From: Nitrospinaceae bacterium | Lineage (GTDB): Bacteria; Nitrospinota; Nitrospinia; Nitrospinales; Nitrospinaceae | DNA length: 64,000 nt | Direction of reading: 5' to 3' | NCBI GenBank assembly: GCA_028278405.1 | Contig: JANQEK010000043.1 | Location: 1 to 64,000, forward strand | Shown here: in pieces, positions 34,462 to 49,513 of the stretch | Layout of the letters: each line of letters starts with the position of its first letter | How positions within the stretch are numbered: position 1 is the first letter of the stretch | The notes under the pieces: model-generated | Told to the model about the DNA's origin: nothing | Databases searched by the model: none | What the model saw: only the letters and a program-made list of their open reading frames with translations | Translations under genes and position numbers: made by a program

Positions 34462-35694
34462 TTACTCCTGGCACAAATGGTCAATTACCTGAATGACTTT
34501 ATCCGTAGCCTGACCGACCGGCGGTAGAGGTGCGGTCGAGCGCCATCGTCCATCGATGACATCTTTAATTCCCTCCCCCAAGTCCTTTAAATTTGGAATG
34601 CCTTTCGACAATCCCATTTTGGCGAAGGGGGCATCCGGCGTGAACAAAGACATATCCATCGTCAAAATGGATTTGCCTAACAGTGCCCCTTCCAATCCTA
34701 CAGTGGATGCGATCGTCACCACAATATCGACGGCTTTTAGAAGTGTCGCCAGATCTTCAGACAAAGGGCTGATTTCAACTCGATCCATTTTATTTGAAAT
34801 CCGGGCATTGTCACTGGGATGGAGTCGAACCACCAAACGCCAATCCTTATTCTGATCGATTAAATGAAATAATTCTTTTTCTATTTTGCGGGGCAGGTCC
34901 GGATCTCCCTGTTTCCCGGTCACGGGATGTATCGAGGGTTCCGCTTGCGAGGCCCAGAGGATAACGGTTTTATTATTCCATCCCCTTTCTTTTCGGAGAA
35001 CTTCGGCTTGCCGGGCCAGTTCGGGAGAGGCCAGGCGATCAAAAACAGGATTACCGGTGACAATCACTTCCTCGGGAGAGCGTCCTGCATCAATTAGAAT
35101 ATTTTTTACGTAATCGGACATGACACAGACTCTGTTGGAATATCCAGGTTGACCCACCCAGGTGATTTCCAGCAGTCCGAACAAATCCACCAGGCATAGC
35201 GATGGAATATTGAGTTTTCCGGCAGTCATGATAGCGGCGCGCTCGGCTCTTGGGGAACTGGTAGTAATAACAAGGTCCGGTTTGAGATCTTCAAAGATAC
35301 GGTTCATTACAGAAAGCGGTAAAAATGCTTGTCGGCCCAACCTGGAATATTGCGCAGCCGCCTTATCGGCTCCGAGACGTTCGACCATATCGAAATATGA
35401 AAGGCCCAGATAAGCGACGGTTTCTTCATAAGGAACAATATTTTCATCGACATCCGTAGCCAGTTTTTTACCCCATTCCAGAGCTTCCACATCTGCGTCC
35501 TTCATAAAATCCTTGAAACCGTAGTAGGGGATACCCGATTTTTGCAAAACCTTTCCGGCATTGGTCAGTCCTATCAGGTTCAGCTTGTATTGGTTTCTCT
35601 TTTGCAGGGATCTCCATACAGGGATTATCATGTTCACGTGTCCTGCCCCGTAAGTTACAAACAGAATACTTTTCTTTTTATGGGGATCGTTCAT
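34462..35694 (-). CDS. GT-B-fold glycosyltransferase-like protein, paralogue 1
   Basis: A 410-residue protein with two Rossmann-like halves. The N-terminal strand-loop is ILFVTYGAGHVNMIIPVW; the C-terminal half has VIVTGNPVFDRLA, LVVRLHPSDN and VVTIASTVGLEGALLGKSIL, as in NeuC- or CDP-glycerol-transferase-like GT-B proteins. It is clearly related to the gene at 45185-46378 along its whole length (shared blocks YEETVAYLGLSY/REETVAYLGLSY, RQAFLPLSVM/RRAFLPLSVM, VGQPGY). Probably a glycosyltransferase or UDP-sugar hydrolase of the island. The start follows the ligase gene stop by 13 bases. Confidence 0.75.
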   Translation of the reverse strand: MNDPHKKKSILFVTYGAGHVNMIIPVWRSLQKRNQYKLNLIGLTNAGKVLQKSGIPYYGFKDFMKDADVEALEWGKKLATDVDENIVPYEETVAYLGLSYFDMVERLGADKAAAQYSRLGRQAFLPLSVMNRIFEDLKPDLVITTSSPRAERAAIMTAGKLNIPSLCLVDLFGLLEITWVGQPGYSNRVCVMSDYVKNILIDAGRSPEEVIVTGNPVFDRLASPELARQAEVLRKERGWNNKTVILWASQAEPSIHPVTGKQGDPDLPRKIEKELFHLIDQNKDWRLVVRLHPSDNARISNKMDRVEISPLSEDLATLLKAVDIVVTIASTVGLEGALLGKSILTMDMSLFTPDAPFAKMGLSKGIPNLKDLGEGIKDVIDGRWRSTAPLPPVGQATDKVIQVIDHLCQE

Positions 35695-42176: not shown

Positions 42177-42821
42177 TTAAATTGAAAGAAACCCCCGAAT
42201 GATTTTCAAACCTGATTCTCCGCTCTTTTCGGGGTGAAACTGGCAACCGGTCATATTGTCGGATTGTACGGCGGCGCAAACACTCAAACCGCTATAATCG
42301 CAATAGGCCAGCAGATTTTTTTTGTTCTTGGGAACTCCCATGAAGGAATGAACAAAGTACATGGGCGTGCCGGGCTTCAACGTTAAAAAGAGAGAATCCT
42401 TCCACTCATCATCCTTTTCCGAACACAGTAATTCATTCCATCCAATGTGAGGTATTTTATGCGGCTCGCCGTTCGCTCCTTGCGATGGGATACGGGTTAC
42501 CTTTCCTGGAATCAGTCCCAATCCAACATGGTTGCCGAATTCCTCGCTGGAATCGAACATCATTTGCATACCCAGGCAGATCCCCAGGAATGGATTGCCC
42601 TTACGGCAAAAAGATACAAGGGGTTCGATCAGGTTTTTTGCCTTCAGGCCTGCCATGCCGTCAGCAAACGCACCGACACCGGGCAAAATCAAACGACCGG
42701 CATCGGTAACAGCTTCCGGCTGATCGGCAATGAGCACGTCGGCTCCGCAGTGTTCCAATGCGTGAACGACATTAAGCATATTGCTTGCCCCGTAATCAAT
42801 GACTGTAACACTGGGCGTCAT
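42177..42821 (-). CDS. HisH-like glutamine amidotransferase subunit of the sugar-amidotransferase system
   Basis: A class I glutaminase of 214 residues that releases ammonia. It opens VTVIDYGASNMLNVVHALEH, with the nucleophile in FLGICLGMQMMF and the His/Glu of the triad in CQFHPEKS. Sequence is HisH-like, but the setting is a glycan operon directly behind hisF-like and PseA-like genes. The set matches the WbpG/HisH2/HisF2 modules of O-antigen loci, where ammonia is passed to an N-acetyl sugar amidotransferase. Overlaps hisF by 4 bases. A role in histidine synthesis is less likely because no other his gene is nearby. Confidence 0.9.
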   Translation of the reverse strand: MTPSVTVIDYGASNMLNVVHALEHCGADVLIADQPEAVTDAGRLILPGVGAFADGMAGLKAKNLIEPLVSFCRKGNPFLGICLGMQMMFDSSEEFGNHVGLGLIPGKVTRIPSQGANGEPHKIPHIGWNELLCSEKDDEWKDSLFLTLKPGTPMYFVHSFMGVPKNKKNLLAYCDYSGLSVCAAVQSDNMTGCQFHPEKSGESGLKIIRGFLSI

Positions 42822-43579
42822 GGCTTTCTCACATGAATATGAGCATCCAACGCGGCTTGACGAATATCCTGGATCTGCATGCGCCGGTAATGCAAAACAT
42901 CGGCCATAGCCACGGCATCGGCTTTCCCTCCTTGCACCACATCGATCAGGTCTTGCGATTGACCCATTCCCCCGCTAGCGATCACGGGAACCGGAACAGA
43001 ATCGGAAACCGCTTTGACCAATTCGATATCAAATCCTTTACGAGTTCCTTCGCGGTCTACAGAAGTGAGCAGAATTTCACCCGCTCCCAGTTCCACCCCC
43101 TCCCGCACCCAGTCGAGTACGTCCCGTCCGGTTCTCTCACGTCCGTTATCGGTATACGCTTCCCATTGACCGGGGGATTGTTGTTTGGCTTCAATGGACA
43201 AAACCATGCATTGAGATCCGAAGCGTTTGGAAACCTGGTGGATCAGGTCTGGATTGTTGATAGCGGCAGTATTGATGGCTACTTTGTCCGCACCCGAACG
43301 CAGGATATGTTTGACGTCGTCGGTCGAGCGGATGCCGCCGCCTACGGTTATGGGAATAAAAACATTTTTAACGGTGCGTTTGACAATATCGGTCAGATTA
43401 TTGCGGCCGTAAAGGCTGGCGACAATGTCCATGTAGATCAATTCGTCGGCCCCGTCCCGGTAATACCCGACCGCGAATTCCTGCGGGTCCCCCATCACCC
43501 GCAAACCTTCCAGGTGGATACCCTTGACCAAATTGGGTCCCTTGATATCCAGCCTGGGGATCAGGCGTACATTACTCAT
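42818..43579 (-). CDS. HisF-like ammonia-channel subunit of the sugar-amidotransferase system
   Basis: A 253-residue TIM barrel. It begins VRLIPRLDIKGPNLVKGIHL (Asp corresponding to the N-terminal catalytic Asp of HisF) and has FIPITVGGGIRSTDD, GADKVAINTAA, ILLTSVDREGTRKGFD and VIASGGMGQSQD, the phosphate-binding loops. In the strand where HisF normally reads IDAK, this protein reads SIEAK, so the second catalytic Asp appears to be Glu. That supports a specialised role, with the barrel acting as ammonia conduit or partner for the PseA-like enzyme. It overlaps the neighbours on both sides by 4 bases. Confidence 0.9.
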   Translation of the reverse strand: MSNVRLIPRLDIKGPNLVKGIHLEGLRVMGDPQEFAVGYYRDGADELIYMDIVASLYGRNNLTDIVKRTVKNVFIPITVGGGIRSTDDVKHILRSGADKVAINTAAINNPDLIHQVSKRFGSQCMVLSIEAKQQSPGQWEAYTDNGRERTGRDVLDWVREGVELGAGEILLTSVDREGTRKGFDIELVKAVSDSVPVPVIASGGMGQSQDLIDVVQGGKADAVAMADVLHYRRMQIQDIRQAALDAHIHVRKP

Positions 43580-44910
43580 GAATGAGCAAGGGATTCCTCA
43601 TGCCAGACAGCGTGTCGCAATATCCATTCGCCGTTATCGTATTTCCACAGATGAGGGGATCGGAACTGGTCGGCCAACCGTAGAAAGTAGTCCCGGGTCA
43701 TTGTAGGTTGCTCGAACATTTTGGAAGCCTCTGGAAATTCTTTGGGATTGATGCTGAGGTATTGAAAAATTTCTTCAGCGAATCGTTCGGGAAATTCATG
43801 GTCGAACCGCTTGACCAGGGCAATTCCCTCTTCCCGGGTAATATCACCCGAGCGGATTTCCTGCGCGGCGTCATAGGTTGTCCGGCCGATCCCGAACTTT
43901 ATTCGGGTGGTGTAGTAGTGAAAATCATCGATGCGATCATCGATGCTGTTGTATTTGCTGTAGGTGCCTGACGTGCGCTCGGGAGAGGCTTCAAAATCAC
44001 CATGTTCTACAGAATAGTAATAACAGCTCTGCGGGTGCCATTTTAAGTAGTAACCCAGGTAGTGCACTTCTACGTTTGTTTTTTCGATTTCAGCAGGATT
44101 GGCCGGCAGATAAGGAATCAAATCCTGATCCTCGATGCCGAATTGATTCTTCAAGTCAGCGACCGAAACACCTCCCAGGAAAATATTCGCCGGATCGCCG
44201 GAGGTGAAATAGGACCAGTCCCTTTTGGCACTGGTAGAATCGGCTACCGGATTTCCATATTCAGATTCGCTTTCTCCGTAAAAAACGAGGGGGATGTTAA
44301 ATCGAACAGCCATTTGGGGCGCCAGGGATTTCTGCCCCAGGATAAAGGCCTGAAAGGGATGAAACAGAATTTCCACAGCCAAACGGGTGAGCAGCCGATG
44401 AATTCTTCCGTTGGGTGTCATCAGATAATTGTCATGGCCGGCATGAATCCACTTCTGAAAATTTTTCCAACCCCAATCTGTGTAAATATGCGGAGCCCAG
44501 GTAACGGTTAGAGGGTGCATTCCATACTTTGTTTTCAGAATATGGGAGGCGTAAAAACTGTCTTTACCACCGGAACCGGGAACAAGACAGTCGTAGGACC
44601 CGTCTTTGCTCCGAAACTGGTCGCACAGCGCGATCAGTTGCTCTTCCCTTTTTTGCCAGTCGATTGTATTTTTCTTTTGCTCGGTCAAACGGCAGGCATC
44701 GCACACCCCCTCCTCATCAAAGTTGATCGTGGCCTTTTTGCTGTCGGAGGTATGGGTGAACTCTACTGCCGAGTTGGGCCGCTGGTTGGAAATAACACAG
44801 CGTTTACAGAACTTAACCTCTTTTGGAAGGCCGTACTTGGTTTTTTGGGTTTCACCGTTTCCGGAATATAATGAAAAATCGACCGGATCGGGGACACGAA
44901 TGATATCCAT
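43576..44910 (-). CDS. N-acetyl sugar amidotransferase (PseA/WbpG-like)
   Basis: An ATP-pyrophosphatase-type enzyme that converts an N-acetyl group on a sugar to an acetamidino group using ammonia. The 444 residues have zinc-type cysteines CKRC and CDAC in the first 80 residues and the PP-loop LVPGSGGKDSFYASHIL near 120. The family block TVTWAPHIYTDWGWKNF follows, then MAVRFNIPLVFYGESESEYGN, which binds substrate in homologues. It leads the operon with hisF-like and hisH-like genes under an extended -10 promoter. Amidination of the legionaminic-type sugar or a related residue is the likely outcome. Confidence 0.92.
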   Translation of the reverse strand: MDIIRVPDPVDFSLYSGNGETQKTKYGLPKEVKFCKRCVISNQRPNSAVEFTHTSDSKKATINFDEEGVCDACRLTEQKKNTIDWQKREEQLIALCDQFRSKDGSYDCLVPGSGGKDSFYASHILKTKYGMHPLTVTWAPHIYTDWGWKNFQKWIHAGHDNYLMTPNGRIHRLLTRLAVEILFHPFQAFILGQKSLAPQMAVRFNIPLVFYGESESEYGNPVADSTSAKRDWSYFTSGDPANIFLGGVSVADLKNQFGIEDQDLIPYLPANPAEIEKTNVEVHYLGYYLKWHPQSCYYYSVEHGDFEASPERTSGTYSKYNSIDDRIDDFHYYTTRIKFGIGRTTYDAAQEIRSGDITREEGIALVKRFDHEFPERFAEEIFQYLSINPKEFPEASKMFEQPTMTRDYFLRLADQFRSPHLWKYDNGEWILRHAVWHEESLAHS

Positions 44911-45015
44911 GGATAAGGGGTTTGGGTACCTATTCAGGTTATTGGCAGTCGAGGCGATAGATTCGCCTTGAACAAAGCTTGAAGAGAAAAATGAGTTTAT
45001 TAAAAATTCAACATC

Positions 45016-45024
45016 ATTATAGCA
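45016..45024 (-). promoter_or_regulatory. Extended -10 promoter for the amidotransferase operon
   Basis: Minus strand TGCTATAAT (TGN plus perfect TATAAT), 106 bases before the ATG of the PseA-like gene. No good -35 at 17 bases, as is common for extended -10 promoters. Confidence 0.55.
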
Positions 45025-45184
45025 TTATCGGAGAATTAGGTAGTAGATATTTTTGGTTAAGAATCCCATATCTGCAACGATGACGCAAACTTACCGGGTC
45101 TTTCACAGGGAGAGGCGATAGGATTTCTGGATAAAAGGTGTGTTAAAATTTTCGTTTATTTGAAGTAAAGAGCGGAGAAAAAAA

Positions 45185-46378
45185 ATTAAGAAAAAAATAT
45201 TTTTTGTAGGTTATGGGGGAGGGCATATCACTATGCTGATCCCTGTTCTCCAGGAGTTGCGTGCGAAAGACGATTATGAATTGGTGGTTTTGGGTCTGAC
45301 CACCGCCTCGGAAAAACTGCAGGCAGCCGGGATTCCGCATATCGGATATCGCCACCTTGTTGAGGAAGGGGATGAGGAAGCCCTGAAAATCGGGGAAAAT
45401 ATGGCTCGCGAATTAGAGCCCAGCGACAAGGTGAGCCGGGAGGAAACCGTCGCTTATTTAGGGTTATCCTACCAGGATTTGATCGACCGTTTGGGAAAGC
45501 GAGAAGCGGAAAATCAGTTTAAGCTTCATGGTCGGCGGGCATTTTTGCCTTTATCCGTCATGGAACGGACATTCAGGAAACTGCAACCGGACCTGGTGGC
45601 CGCTACAAATTCTCCCCGTTCAGAAAAAGCAGCTATCTTGACCGCGAGAAAAATGGGCATTCCCGCAGTATGCCTGATGGATTTATTCGACCCCAGGGAA
45701 TTTGAGGATCGGGTTGGTCAGCCGGGATATGCCGATCGGATTTGTGTCCTGTCTCAAGCCGTAAAGGAAAACCTGAAATCTTACGGAAGGCATGATGACG
45801 AAATTGTGGTTACGGGCAATCCGGCGTTTGATGATTTGGCAGAACCGGATTTGCAACTCAAGGCTGAGACATTACGGTCTCAAAGGGGATGGGCCGACGG
45901 AAAGGTTATTCTGTGGGCAAGGCAGGTCAATCCCAACGATTGGGGATTGTACGAAACGGTAGAATCACATTTTTACGATCTCCTAGAGCAGCACCGGGAC
46001 TGGCACTTGGTGATTCGCCTTCATCCAAATGATCTTACCCGCTTTGAAAACCTTCCTCCAAGAGTTACTCTGAGCACCCAAAAAGATGATCTTGCGACTT
46101 TTCTTCAAGCATCGGATGTGGTGATTACGGTGAATTCTACGGTAGGTGTACAGGGGGTTGCCATCGGCAAACCCTTGATCACCATAGAACTGGGTGCGGC
46201 TTCGCCTTTTACTCCTTACGGAGACCTGGGTTTTTCCATCGGGATTAAAGACGTTAATCTTCTTGAAGCAAGTATTCTAAAAGCGCTGGGTGGGTTTAAG
46301 GCATCCGCCACCCTTCCCAAGCCGGGCGGTGCCGCACACGCTGTGGTGGAGGTGATGCGGGATCTGTTGGGTGATTAA
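45185..46378 (+). CDS. GT-B-fold glycosyltransferase-like protein, paralogue 2, with apparent AUU start
   Basis: Paralogue of the protein at 34462-35694. The first ATG of the frame (45233) begins inside the conserved N-terminal loop. Reading upstream gives KKKIFFVGYGGGHITMLIPV, aligned with KKKSILFVTYGAGHVNMIIP of the paralogue, so about 16 residues lie before that ATG. No ATG, GTG, TTG or CTG occurs between the in-frame stop at 45161 and 45233. ATT at 45185 lies 7 bases after GCGGAG, an ideal spacing. I therefore call 45185-46378 (397 residues) with an AUU start. The C-terminal half carries VVTGNPAFDDLA, LVIRLHPNDL and VVITVNSTVGVQG. Its 3' end overlaps the convergent sulfotransferase gene by 4 bases. 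Confidence 0.72.
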   Translation: MKKKIFFVGYGGGHITMLIPVLQELRAKDDYELVVLGLTTASEKLQAAGIPHIGYRHLVEEGDEEALKIGENMARELEPSDKVSREETVAYLGLSYQDLIDRLGKREAENQFKLHGRRAFLPLSVMERTFRKLQPDLVAATNSPRSEKAAILTARKMGIPAVCLMDLFDPREFEDRVGQPGYADRICVLSQAVKENLKSYGRHDDEIVVTGNPAFDDLAEPDLQLKAETLRSQRGWADGKVILWARQVNPNDWGLYETVESHFYDLLEQHRDWHLVIRLHPNDLTRFENLPPRVTLSTQKDDLATFLQASDVVITVNSTVGVQGVAIGKPLITIELGAASPFTPYGDLGFSIGIKDVNLLEASILKALGGFKASATLPKPGGAAHAVVEVMRDLLGD

Positions 46379-47373
46379 AGTTTGTAGACGTCGGTGTCCC
46401 AAGTTGATGGATCGGTTTCCTTCAAGGGGTTTCTCTGAACCCCTTCATCATTCTGTATGATGTTTAAAATACCGTTCAAGGCAAGAGGGCTTTGTTGCAA
46501 CTTGGAGAGGGCTTTGTAGGCTTCCTTGATCCCTATTTGATCCAGTTTTCCTGACAAAGGGTACTGAAACTTATTCATCAATGACCGGTTGGTCCATTCG
46601 CACAGGATCAAATCTTCTTCAGCCAGGTGTTCTTTCCAGCGACCAATGGGGGTTTTGGAAATGCCTTCTATTTTGTCGCCAAAGGCGGTGTTGGGCGTCC
46701 ATTTGTCCTGGGTGACCTTGTTTTTGAACTGGCTGACGTTCAGCATTTCGGGTTGAAACGGGAGTCCCAAATCGCTGCAAAGGGTTTTTGTGGTTTTTTC
46801 GGGATCGGTCGCCAGATCCTCATACTTTAAAAGTACATATCGGTTTCCGAATCGCTCACGGTTGATCAGTGCGAATTTCATGGCATCAAAGCAATTGCCG
46901 ATGGCATCCAGATAGTCTACACCGGGAGCGATGGTTTCGTTTTTCCAGGAACTCAAAATATCTCTTGGATCCCGCAGGCAATGGACGATCGAAATATCGT
47001 CAAACATCTCCAAAATGTCTTCAGCGTTCCTCCATTGCAAAACCGTTTTTTCACCCCAGTTGGCGCTTCCCGTATACAACTGCATAAAAATGTCGTAAAG
47101 AGCGCCATAGGTCAATTGAGGTAAGGCCTCCACTTTCTTTTTATACTGCGCCACATCGATCCCGCTTCCGAAGCGTTTATTGAGCCGATGGTTCATCGAT
47201 TCCGCGAGCTGCAGAGAGGATTCCAGGGTAATCCGGTTTTTCCCGAATTTCATGTAAGCGAAGCGCATGAAATGAACGGAATCGTAAGTGATGCTCAAAT
47301 CGGAGTGCTGGTTGAGAATATGGCTGGCTAAGGTAGTGCCTGAGCGGAATGTTCCTGTAATAAAAATTTTCAA
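46375..47373 (-). CDS. PAPS-dependent sulfotransferase family protein
   Basis: Likely transfers sulfate from PAPS to a glycan. The 332 residues open with the 5'-phosphosulfate loop ITGTFRSGTTLASHIL and have the 3'-phosphate motif CLRDPRDILSSW around residue 137, both standard for this superfamily. The protein is soluble, without a signal peptide. It is last in the murJ-led operon and overlaps the methyltransferase stop by 4 bases (ATGA). The APS kinase gene at 59.3 kb could supply its donor. The acceptor sugar is unknown. Confidence 0.87.
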   Translation of the reverse strand: MKIFITGTFRSGTTLASHILNQHSDLSITYDSVHFMRFAYMKFGKNRITLESSLQLAESMNHRLNKRFGSGIDVAQYKKKVEALPQLTYGALYDIFMQLYTGSANWGEKTVLQWRNAEDILEMFDDISIVHCLRDPRDILSSWKNETIAPGVDYLDAIGNCFDAMKFALINRERFGNRYVLLKYEDLATDPEKTTKTLCSDLGLPFQPEMLNVSQFKNKVTQDKWTPNTAFGDKIEGISKTPIGRWKEHLAEEDLILCEWTNRSLMNKFQYPLSGKLDQIGIKEAYKALSKLQQSPLALNGILNIIQNDEGVQRNPLKETDPSTWDTDVYKL

Positions 47374-48176
47374 GAGGTCTTCTCCTCCAGTTCCGGATGC
47401 GCCTGTTGAAGGGTTTTGGAAATCGGAGCGGCAAACTCTTCAAAGTCTATTTCTTCGGAACCTTTTTCAATAATTAAAAACCATTCGTAAAATTTTTCAG
47501 GGATTTCCTGAAGATACTTATTCTTGGCAAAATCCCCCCTTCGGGGAAAATAATAGGAATCCAAAACCTTATGTCCTTTGGAAGCGAGCATTTCAAGCAT
47601 TTTCGGTACGTCGGTAAAAAAGTTTGGATGGCCTTTGCTGCGCGCGCCCATTTCAGCGTCCAGCGAGAGTTGGTCGTCCGAAAAATAGTTCAAGCTTTTT
47701 CCGGTGACATACAGCCTGCCTCCTATTTTAAGGACTCTAAGAAACTCACGCAAAGATTTAATCTGAAATGTGGAATCGAAGGTGGCAATACAGCTGACGT
47801 TATCAAAAAAATCATCCTCATACGGGACACTCTCCGCCTCAGATTCCTGCATATCTTTAATCTGGGGATCATTGCCGTGGGTATTTTTGGCAGCGGCTAT
47901 CATGGCGGATGAAATATCCACGCCATAAATGTTCACCTCGTATTCTTTGTAAATCCTAAACATTCGGCCCCAGGCGCAGCCCACTTCCAACAGATTTCCC
48001 GGATTGAACGGATTTTTTGCAAAAATAGATTCGTAAATCTCGTCATCCTCAGTTTTGGCGTCTCCATCAATGATCCTGCTTTCATGGGCATCCCCACCCG
48101 ATTCATCGACACGGGATTTCCAATATTCGTAATACTTTTGGTTCCAGTAATCTTTTCGTTCCTGTCCAGTTTTCAT
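47370..48176 (-). CDS. SAM-dependent methyltransferase
   Basis: A class I methyltransferase with motif I LLEVGCAWGRMFRIYKEY near residue 75, NIYGVDISSAMIAAA, and the post-motif DNVSCIATFDSTFQIKSLREFLRVLKIGG. I start at ATG 48176, which overlaps the stop of the upstream gene as ATGA; the longer frame to 48275 lies inside that gene. It has 268 residues. Two methyltransferases (this and 18895-19521) in the island suggest methylated sugars, but the acceptor cannot be read. Confidence 0.85.
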   Translation of the reverse strand: MKTGQERKDYWNQKYYEYWKSRVDESGGDAHESRIIDGDAKTEDDEIYESIFAKNPFNPGNLLEVGCAWGRMFRIYKEYEVNIYGVDISSAMIAAAKNTHGNDPQIKDMQESEAESVPYEDDFFDNVSCIATFDSTFQIKSLREFLRVLKIGGRLYVTGKSLNYFSDDQLSLDAEMGARSKGHPNFFTDVPKMLEMLASKGHKVLDSYYFPRRGDFAKNKYLQEIPEKFYEWFLIIEKGSEEIDFEEFAAPISKTLQQAHPELEEKTS

Positions 48177-49513
48177 GAGTTCCCAAACTTTAATGTTTTG
48201 ACATAAGTGCTGCCGAATTTGTTGTTGGCGGCGAAACCAATAATATCCACGTCTTCGGGTGGAACCGTATCGCAATCGAAGGCGTAGTACCAGGTTTTCC
48301 CATCCAGGCCGAAATCGAAGTTGTCGTGGATGAAACGGTCGCCCCGTGTTTTGATGGCAAGAAACGGTTGGGGTCCGAACACGCTGCCTTTCACCGACTC
48401 AACTTTCAACCGATGAATACCGTCTTCCTCATAAAGGTTTCCATGCAATTCCAATTCTTCGGTTTGACCGTTGTGGACCACGGCATTGAAGGCATCTTTG
48501 GCACGGGCGTAGATAAATTGTGTGTCCGAGAATTTTTTGGAAGAGTTTTCTATCAATTTTCTGACTTTGTCCACCTCCGGACCCATATGACGCCAGTCAT
48601 GGCTGGCGACCCCCATAAGGACCGGTTCCCCTTTAGAGGCTTTTTCAAACGCCCGGTCCATCTCCCTTTGATCGATGCAGGCAATTCGTGAGTTGATATT
48701 TAAAGACCTCGCAATGTAACGCTTGCAGCTGCCGGGTTTTTGATAATCGTAAATATCGGGTTGGTAAATGGACCAATCGTGCGGGGCTCGACGCCAATCC
48801 CCCGACCGTCCATTTTTAAAATCATTATGCTTTTCAAACTCTGAAGCATCTTCGATGGCCATATTGGAAGTGTCGAAAGGAATCCATTGTTCAAGGAACC
48901 AGTTGCTGTCGGGTCGTTCTGTTTGAAACCCGGCGCGAAAAGTACTTGGAAAAAAATTGCGCTCGATAATCCTCCGGGCCAGCGTTTCATAGAGATGCGG
49001 AGAGTTGACATAGGATGTGGCGCATCGATGAGCCTCTTTATAAGTGGACATGGGATGAAAATGCCACTCGATCGCATCCATGGGAGAATTGTATTTATCG
49101 ACAAACTCCAGATAACGATCGTGAATATTGTTATAGCCCATTTCCCGACGTCTCGGGTTAGTCGTAAAATCCACATGATCCAGGCAATGCCAGTTATAAA
49201 CCCAGCCGTTGCCTGCGGAATCCGGCAGACTGTTCCTGAAATCAGGGCTCATTATTTCCGCAAGCATTGCTTCAATTTTCTCCCAACTGTCGTTGTAAGA
49301 CAGAAGTTGTGGATCGACCACCTCGGCCACCTGGCTTTCTTTTCCATTGAGGTCGATTTCCTGGTTTTGGAGTTTTTTCAGGTTAGCGTAAGTGGCGGGA
49401 AGGTTCACATCAAACAAATCATGCAGTCGCTCAAAAGTCGCTTGCAGGGACTCATACAAGGGACCTTCAGTATCAATCGAGTGAACCACATATACGGTTT
49501 TGGGGCTGGCCAT
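48173..49513 (-). CDS. Uncharacterised DTEGP/WHFHP family protein, copy 2
   Basis: Paralogue of the gene at 39474-40805, 446 residues, similar along the whole length. Matching blocks: HSIDTEGPLYESL, TFERLHDLF, NDSWEKI, GWVYNWHCLDHV, IEWHFHPMSTY, CATSYVNS, RPDSNWFLEQWIPFD, GRSGDWRRAPHDW, SHDWRHMGPEVDKVRKL and SVFGPQPFLAIK. The invariant DTEGP, WHFHP, Glu/Trp pairs and His-Asp sites look like an enzyme active site, perhaps a CE4-like deacetylase or other metal-dependent sugar enzyme. Here it follows asnB and precedes a methyltransferase with an ATGA overlap, so it is part of a tightly coupled glycan operon. Confidence 0.72.
   Translation of the reverse strand: MASPKTVYVVHSIDTEGPLYESLQATFERLHDLFDVNLPATYANLKKLQNQEIDLNGKESQVAEVVDPQLLSYNDSWEKIEAMLAEIMSPDFRNSLPDSAGNGWVYNWHCLDHVDFTTNPRRREMGYNNIHDRYLEFVDKYNSPMDAIEWHFHPMSTYKEAHRCATSYVNSPHLYETLARRIIERNFFPSTFRAGFQTERPDSNWFLEQWIPFDTSNMAIEDASEFEKHNDFKNGRSGDWRRAPHDWSIYQPDIYDYQKPGSCKRYIARSLNINSRIACIDQREMDRAFEKASKGEPVLMGVASHDWRHMGPEVDKVRKLIENSSKKFSDTQFIYARAKDAFNAVVHNGQTEELELHGNLYEEDGIHRLKVESVKGSVFGPQPFLAIKTRGDRFIHDNFDFGLDGKTWYYAFDCDTVPPEDVDIIGFAANNKFGSTYVKTLKFGNS

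Follow-up and report, generated by a model that had tools for sequence, protein, structure and literature searches.

A probable AUU start codon in a surface-glycan gene

A gene for a probable glycosyltransferase in a Nitrospinaceae bacterium appears to initiate translation at AUU, a reading to which comparison of its start region with relatives lends a probability of roughly 0.87. The gene is carried by the window (the whole 64,000-nt stretch of DNA analyzed here), which is contig C24 of a 3.16-Mb draft genome in 47 contigs. Features of the gene and of its surroundings are collected in Table 1.

Table 1. Features of the glycan gene, its start region, and its neighbors (window coordinates)
Feature	Position	Strand	Remarks
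Paralogue of the glycan gene	34462-35694	-	46% identity; ordinary ATG start; short N-terminal extension
N-acetyl sugar amidotransferase (WbuX/WbpG type)	43576-44910	-	Divergent neighbor
In-frame TGA stop	45161-45163	+	Upstream bound of the possible start region; sequence reading
Shine-Dalgarno GCGGAG	45172-45177	+	Core GGAG at 45174-45177; 7-nt A-only spacer before ATT
Putative ATT (AUU) start codon	45185-45187	+	Would be read as fMet; aligned with ATA of the orthologue (L013:3001)
GT-B-fold sugar-nucleotide enzyme (probable glycosyltransferase)	45185-46378	+	397 aa plus stop
Codons 2 to 16	45188-45232	+	Beta strand 1 and YGGGH loop; protein-level conservation versus orthologue
First ATG of the frame (Met17)	45233-45235	+	Inside helix 1; choice of the automatic ORF caller (381 aa)
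Sulfotransferase	46375-47373	-	Convergent
Methyltransferase	47370-48275		Next after the sulfotransferase

The frame of the gene runs from the TGA through AGT AAA GAG CGG AGA AAA AAA to ATT and continues with AAG AAA AAA ATA TTT TTT GTA GGT TAT GGG GGA GGG CAT ATC ACT to the first ATG. A preliminary description of this DNA had reported that ATG, GTG, TTG, and CTG are all missing between the stop and this ATG, and that ATT follows GCGGAG by seven bases; direct reading bears out both statements. Initiator tRNA would decode the AUU as fMet, with the upstream GGAG positioning the ribosome, and the resulting protein would begin MKKKIFFVGYGGGHITM, with (M)KKKIFFVGYGGGHITM as its expected N-terminal peptide.

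Although the Shine-Dalgarno core of the window gene is only 4 bp long, its predicted duplex with the 16S 3' end found in the same genome (GGATCACCTCCTT) has a free energy of -6.6 kcal/mol, compared with a median of -3.5 and a 25th percentile of -5.8 kcal/mol among 273 background ORFs. The corresponding values are -14.0 kcal/mol for the closest orthologue and -8.3 kcal/mol for infC of the same genome. The distance between the Shine-Dalgarno sequence and the AUN codon is 7 nt in the window gene and 6 nt in the orthologue, both inside the 5-to-9-nt range applied. Accessibility of the start region is ordinary, at values of 0.49 and 0.56 where the background has a median of 0.48, and a scan of positions 44880 to 45300 detected no sigma-70-like promoter.

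The closest orthologue also lacks a canonical start

The closest orthologue (L013) belongs to another genus of the same family (Nitrospinaceae OFTM7, JAJDBF010000070.1, corresponding to G010:C70) and is 63% identical to the window gene across its whole length. The two are joined in the gene tree with support of 93/96, the remainder of the tree being weak, and the order of sulfotransferase followed by methyltransferase downstream is kept. The start region of the orthologue reads TGGAGGTGGCAC followed by ATA TCT AAA CGA ATT, with the ATA falling in the same aligned column as the ATT of the window gene and preceded at a distance of 6 nt by GGAGG. No ATG, GTG, TTG, or CTG occurs in the orthologue between the upstream in-frame TAA and the conserved coding sequence. 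The preliminary description had proposed AUU initiation and an alignment of orthologues to see whether ATG, GTG, or TTG occupies this codon; none of them does, and the ATG that would speak against AUU is absent. Its proposal thus gains support from an ATA at the same codon, from the lack of a canonical start, and from the near-ideal Shine-Dalgarno sequence of the orthologue.

Across codons 2 to 16, the window gene and the orthologue are identical at 12 of 15 first positions, 12 of 15 second positions, and 5 of 15 third positions. Conservation of the first two positions without the third is the signature of protein-level selection, and it ends at the AUN codon: only 20 of the 60 nucleotides immediately upstream are identical, with nothing notable farther upstream. 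Over the whole gene, 52 of 124 fourfold-degenerate sites are identical, indicating that synonymous sites are near saturation. In both orthologues the start nevertheless looks retained as AUN and not AUG, a comparison with n = 2.

The orthologue with ATA was the sole one found, and phylum-wide and wider searches of 77, 387, and 392 genomes returned no third member of this clade. The gene is absent from most of the Nitrospinota genomes sampled. A near match in E. coli proved not to be an orthologue, plasmids yielded only two distant Rhodobacterales relatives, both with ATG starts, and no further orthologue was found in the viral contigs searched.

The N terminus belongs to the fold of the enzyme

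In a seven-member alignment of the family, Y10, G11, and H14 are invariant, and all three precede the first ATG. The structure model of the AUU-started protein (pLDDT, 84.7; pTM, 0.85) places beta strand 1 at residues 3 to 9, followed by a loop and by helix 1 at residues 12 to 27. Because Met17 lies within this helix, a start at the ATG would delete both beta strand 1 and the loop, in agreement with what the preliminary description had predicted. It had also held that the paralogue retains the strand and a GYGGGHITM loop. The strand is indeed kept (MNDPHKKKSILFVTYGAGHVNM), but the loop of the paralogue is TYGAGHVNM. A canonical start (ATG, GTG, or TTG) lies upstream of the YGGGH motif in all 18 other family loci tested, whose sources are Nitrospinota, a second phylum, and a plasmid; by this reading of start regions, absence of a canonical start is limited to the window gene and its orthologue. 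A 9-residue insert is common to the ATG-started paralogue and two further family members (L004 and L005) and is missing from the AUU gene and its orthologue.

The best Foldseek matches of the model are UDP-GlcNAc 2-epimerases (probability, 1.00; TM score, about 0.6), at 14 to 17% sequence identity. The enzyme scores 33.8 bits against PF02350 (cutoff, 30.6) and falls far below the cutoff of the NCBIfam wecB equivalog (24 versus 210 bits). It thus shares the fold of the nonhydrolyzing UDP-GlcNAc 2-epimerases and GT-B glycosyltransferases, but its low identity to WecB-type epimerases and its failure at the wecB cutoff mark it as a glycosyltransferase-like relative and not a proven epimerase. The enzyme is probably a glycosyltransferase or an epimerase-like protein.

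The gene is the lone plus-strand gene between the divergent amidotransferase and the convergent sulfotransferase and methyltransferase. Since the amidotransferase is divergent, the AUU gene has a 5' region of its own, about 275 nt long. Genes for an O-antigen ligase (Wzy_C), a MurJ-type flippase, and a Polysacc_synt_2 protein lie nearby, and the region is a surface-glycan locus. Within this locus, the genes of the two paralogous GT-B enzymes lie on opposite strands, separated by about 10 kb. Genes for HisH-like, HisF-like, and WbuX-type amidotransferase proteins, a sugar amidation set, are consecutive at 42177 to 44910; plasmid relatives of the enzyme gene likewise adjoin hisH- and hisF-like genes and NeuD-like genes.

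Non-AUG starts elsewhere in the genome

The organism has IF3, and its infC gene, which served as a positive control, also has an AUN start. The infC locus of this genome reads AAGGAGAAGATTGT followed by ATT AAG AAG CAA AGA GTG and is without a canonical start. Among the Nitrospinota infC loci (L054 on G000:C25, L055 to L066, and L024 to L053), 38 of 43 contain no in-frame ATG, GTG, or TTG. ATT is the usual AUN codon; several members of the window's genus have ATC instead, and three genomes from other genera have ATA. The third base of this codon thus shifts among T, C, and A across the phylum and is never G, as it alternates between T and A in the glycan gene.

How rare such starts are was surveyed in 0.88 Mb of the window's genome, for comparison with 1.2 Mb of one related genome (G008) and 0.44 Mb of that of the orthologue (G010). 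The pattern sought combined three features: a Shine-Dalgarno sequence, an AUN codon, and coding sequence that is conserved ahead of any canonical start. In the sampled part of the window's genome, 2 of 232 genes with a testable N terminus display it, namely infC and the glycan gene. This rate is a lower bound, because the survey registers a gene only if four or more conserved residues precede its first canonical codon, and an AUN-started gene in which ATG, GTG, or TTG comes early therefore escapes it. The remaining candidates for missing starts were set aside: some overlap the upstream gene in a different reading frame, and others are broken genes or rest on short, weak alignments. In three ORFs (L081:1680 on G000:C8, L153:18687 in G008, and L186 on the minus strand in G010), the conserved 5' part is interrupted by a stop, and no start or Shine-Dalgarno sequence lies nearby; these are apparently broken genes and not AUN starts.

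Alternative explanations

That the 381-aa call is correct, with translation starting at Met17 and the upstream frame untranslated, is very improbable. Met17 is kept in the orthologue, giving 381-aa ATG ORFs in both genes, and a Shine-Dalgarno-like GGAGG, formed in the window by the glycine codons GGG GGA GGG, precedes the ATG by 10 nt. This GGAGG is missing from the orthologue (GGTGGCGGACACATCACCATG), however, and the call would leave untranslated a segment that evolves as protein and holds the family-invariant residues, would begin the protein within helix 1 of the model, and would set it apart from the 18 relatives that all start upstream of the YGGGH motif. Judging from the GGAGG, an extra, shorter product may arise from this ATG besides the AUU-started protein. 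Slimmer still is the chance that the ATT is a sequencing or assembly error for ATG, or that a recent mutation of the start has left the gene in decay. The draft state of the genome and the A-rich sequence around the ATT speak for such an event, but the two separate assemblies independently lack a canonical start at this codon, and an error of ATT for ATG is accordingly very unlikely. Moreover, the frame is intact for 397 codons, amino acids are strongly conserved against near-saturated synonymous sites, and an indel in the A tract would supply no start, since the alternative upstream frames have none that reaches the glycan gene. Equally hard to credit is initiation at another noncanonical codon, chiefly codon 5, which is AUN in both orthologues (ATA at 45197 in the window and ATT in the orthologue). 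Codon 5 lies about 18 to 19 nt from the Shine-Dalgarno sequence, versus 6 to 7 nt for codon 1, and it specifies an aliphatic residue of beta strand 1 that is conserved family-wide, such that isoleucine explains the AUN there. Two further routes were rejected: a frameshift from an upstream start, as the other plus-strand frames have stops and no usable start, the TTG at 45160 running into TAA one codon on, and readthrough of the TGA from GTG at 45140, as that region is unconserved and the orthologue has TAA.

A different alternative accepts initiation at AUN and competes only with its regulatory interpretation. The codon could have drifted to fixation, tolerated by virtue of the Shine-Dalgarno sequence in a gene of whose product little is needed, and this we regard as a serious possibility, though short of an even chance. 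Only two orthologues are known, and most of the sampled Nitrospinota genomes lack the gene. Against drift, a single step would convert AUU or AUA to AUG, yet neither lineage has acquired the G in spite of the near-saturation of fourfold sites.

Relation to known non-AUG starts

infC, which encodes IF3 and is autoregulated by its own product, is the textbook AUU-start gene of E. coli. Weak initiation at AUU, its disfavoring by IF3, and compensation by the Shine-Dalgarno sequence are established for infC and pcnB, and in the latter the AUU start was reportedly shown by experiment to limit expression (Binns and Masters, in 2002, cited in PMC13009471). The glycan gene resembles infC, both of E. 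coli and of its own genome, in having AUU after a purine-rich Shine-Dalgarno sequence without a canonical alternative, but its enzyme has no obvious counterpart to the autoregulatory loop. It resembles pcnB in that the AUU start serves a protein other than a translation factor; the product of pcnB is, however, a poly(A) polymerase, and limited expression is experimental there and drawn by analogy here.

The preliminary description rightly named infC and pcnB as established cases, but confining the list to those two is somewhat dated. In S. aureus, the starts of cvfC1 (AUU), ccpN (AUA), and citZ (AUA) were mapped by Ribo-Ret and reporters, with about 10% of AUG expression in minimal-type medium, and cvfC1 and ccpN have an extended Shine-Dalgarno sequence and a type of start that is conserved among relatives (PMC13009471). 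The same two codons are found in the glycan gene, but the S. aureus genes are others, in another phylum, with experimentally mapped starts, whereas the start of the glycan gene is read from sequence; in addition, AUU and AUA here alternate between orthologues of one gene. For Streptomyces sigR, which has a GTC start, repression by IF3 was demonstrated (PMC5472188). As there, the glycan gene gives one member of one pathway a noncanonical start that IF3 would proofread, but sigR uses GUC and encodes a sigma factor subject to stoichiometric control, and its IF3 dependence was tested directly, compared with an argument from analogy for the glycan gene.

Implications for the organism

Under AUU initiation, the codon would be mismatched at its third position with initiator tRNA; IF3 would disfavor such complexes, and the Shine-Dalgarno sequence would compensate. 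The AUN start would then set a low rate of synthesis, which IF3 proofreading would adjust and the above-average Shine-Dalgarno sequence would offset. Taking infC, pcnB, sigR, and S. aureus cvfC1 and ccpN as models, we put the odds that the AUU start has such an IF3-sensitive, low-expression role at about even; the preliminary description had likewise expected sensitivity to IF3. More tentative, and on balance doubtful, is the wider proposal that a surface-glycan glycosyltransferase in Nitrospinaceae is under IF3-dependent control through its conserved AUN-not-AUG start, whereby synthesis of the coat would track the translation apparatus, in parallel to infC.

As judged from its sequence, the glycan gene joins a known class, that of genes with conserved non-AUG starts, here in the gene of an accessory enzyme. 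Few bacterial starts beyond AUG, GUG, and UUG are well documented, mostly in translation factors or regulators. Standard ORF calling trims this enzyme by 16 residues, with loss of an essential strand. Comparing two genomes was a cheap way to expose the hidden start, which makes it feasible to look for others of the AUN type throughout the phylum. That such a start is conserved, as AUU or AUA, in an uncultured lineage and in an accessory glycan enzyme suggests that ordinary enzymes may be tuned in the same manner.
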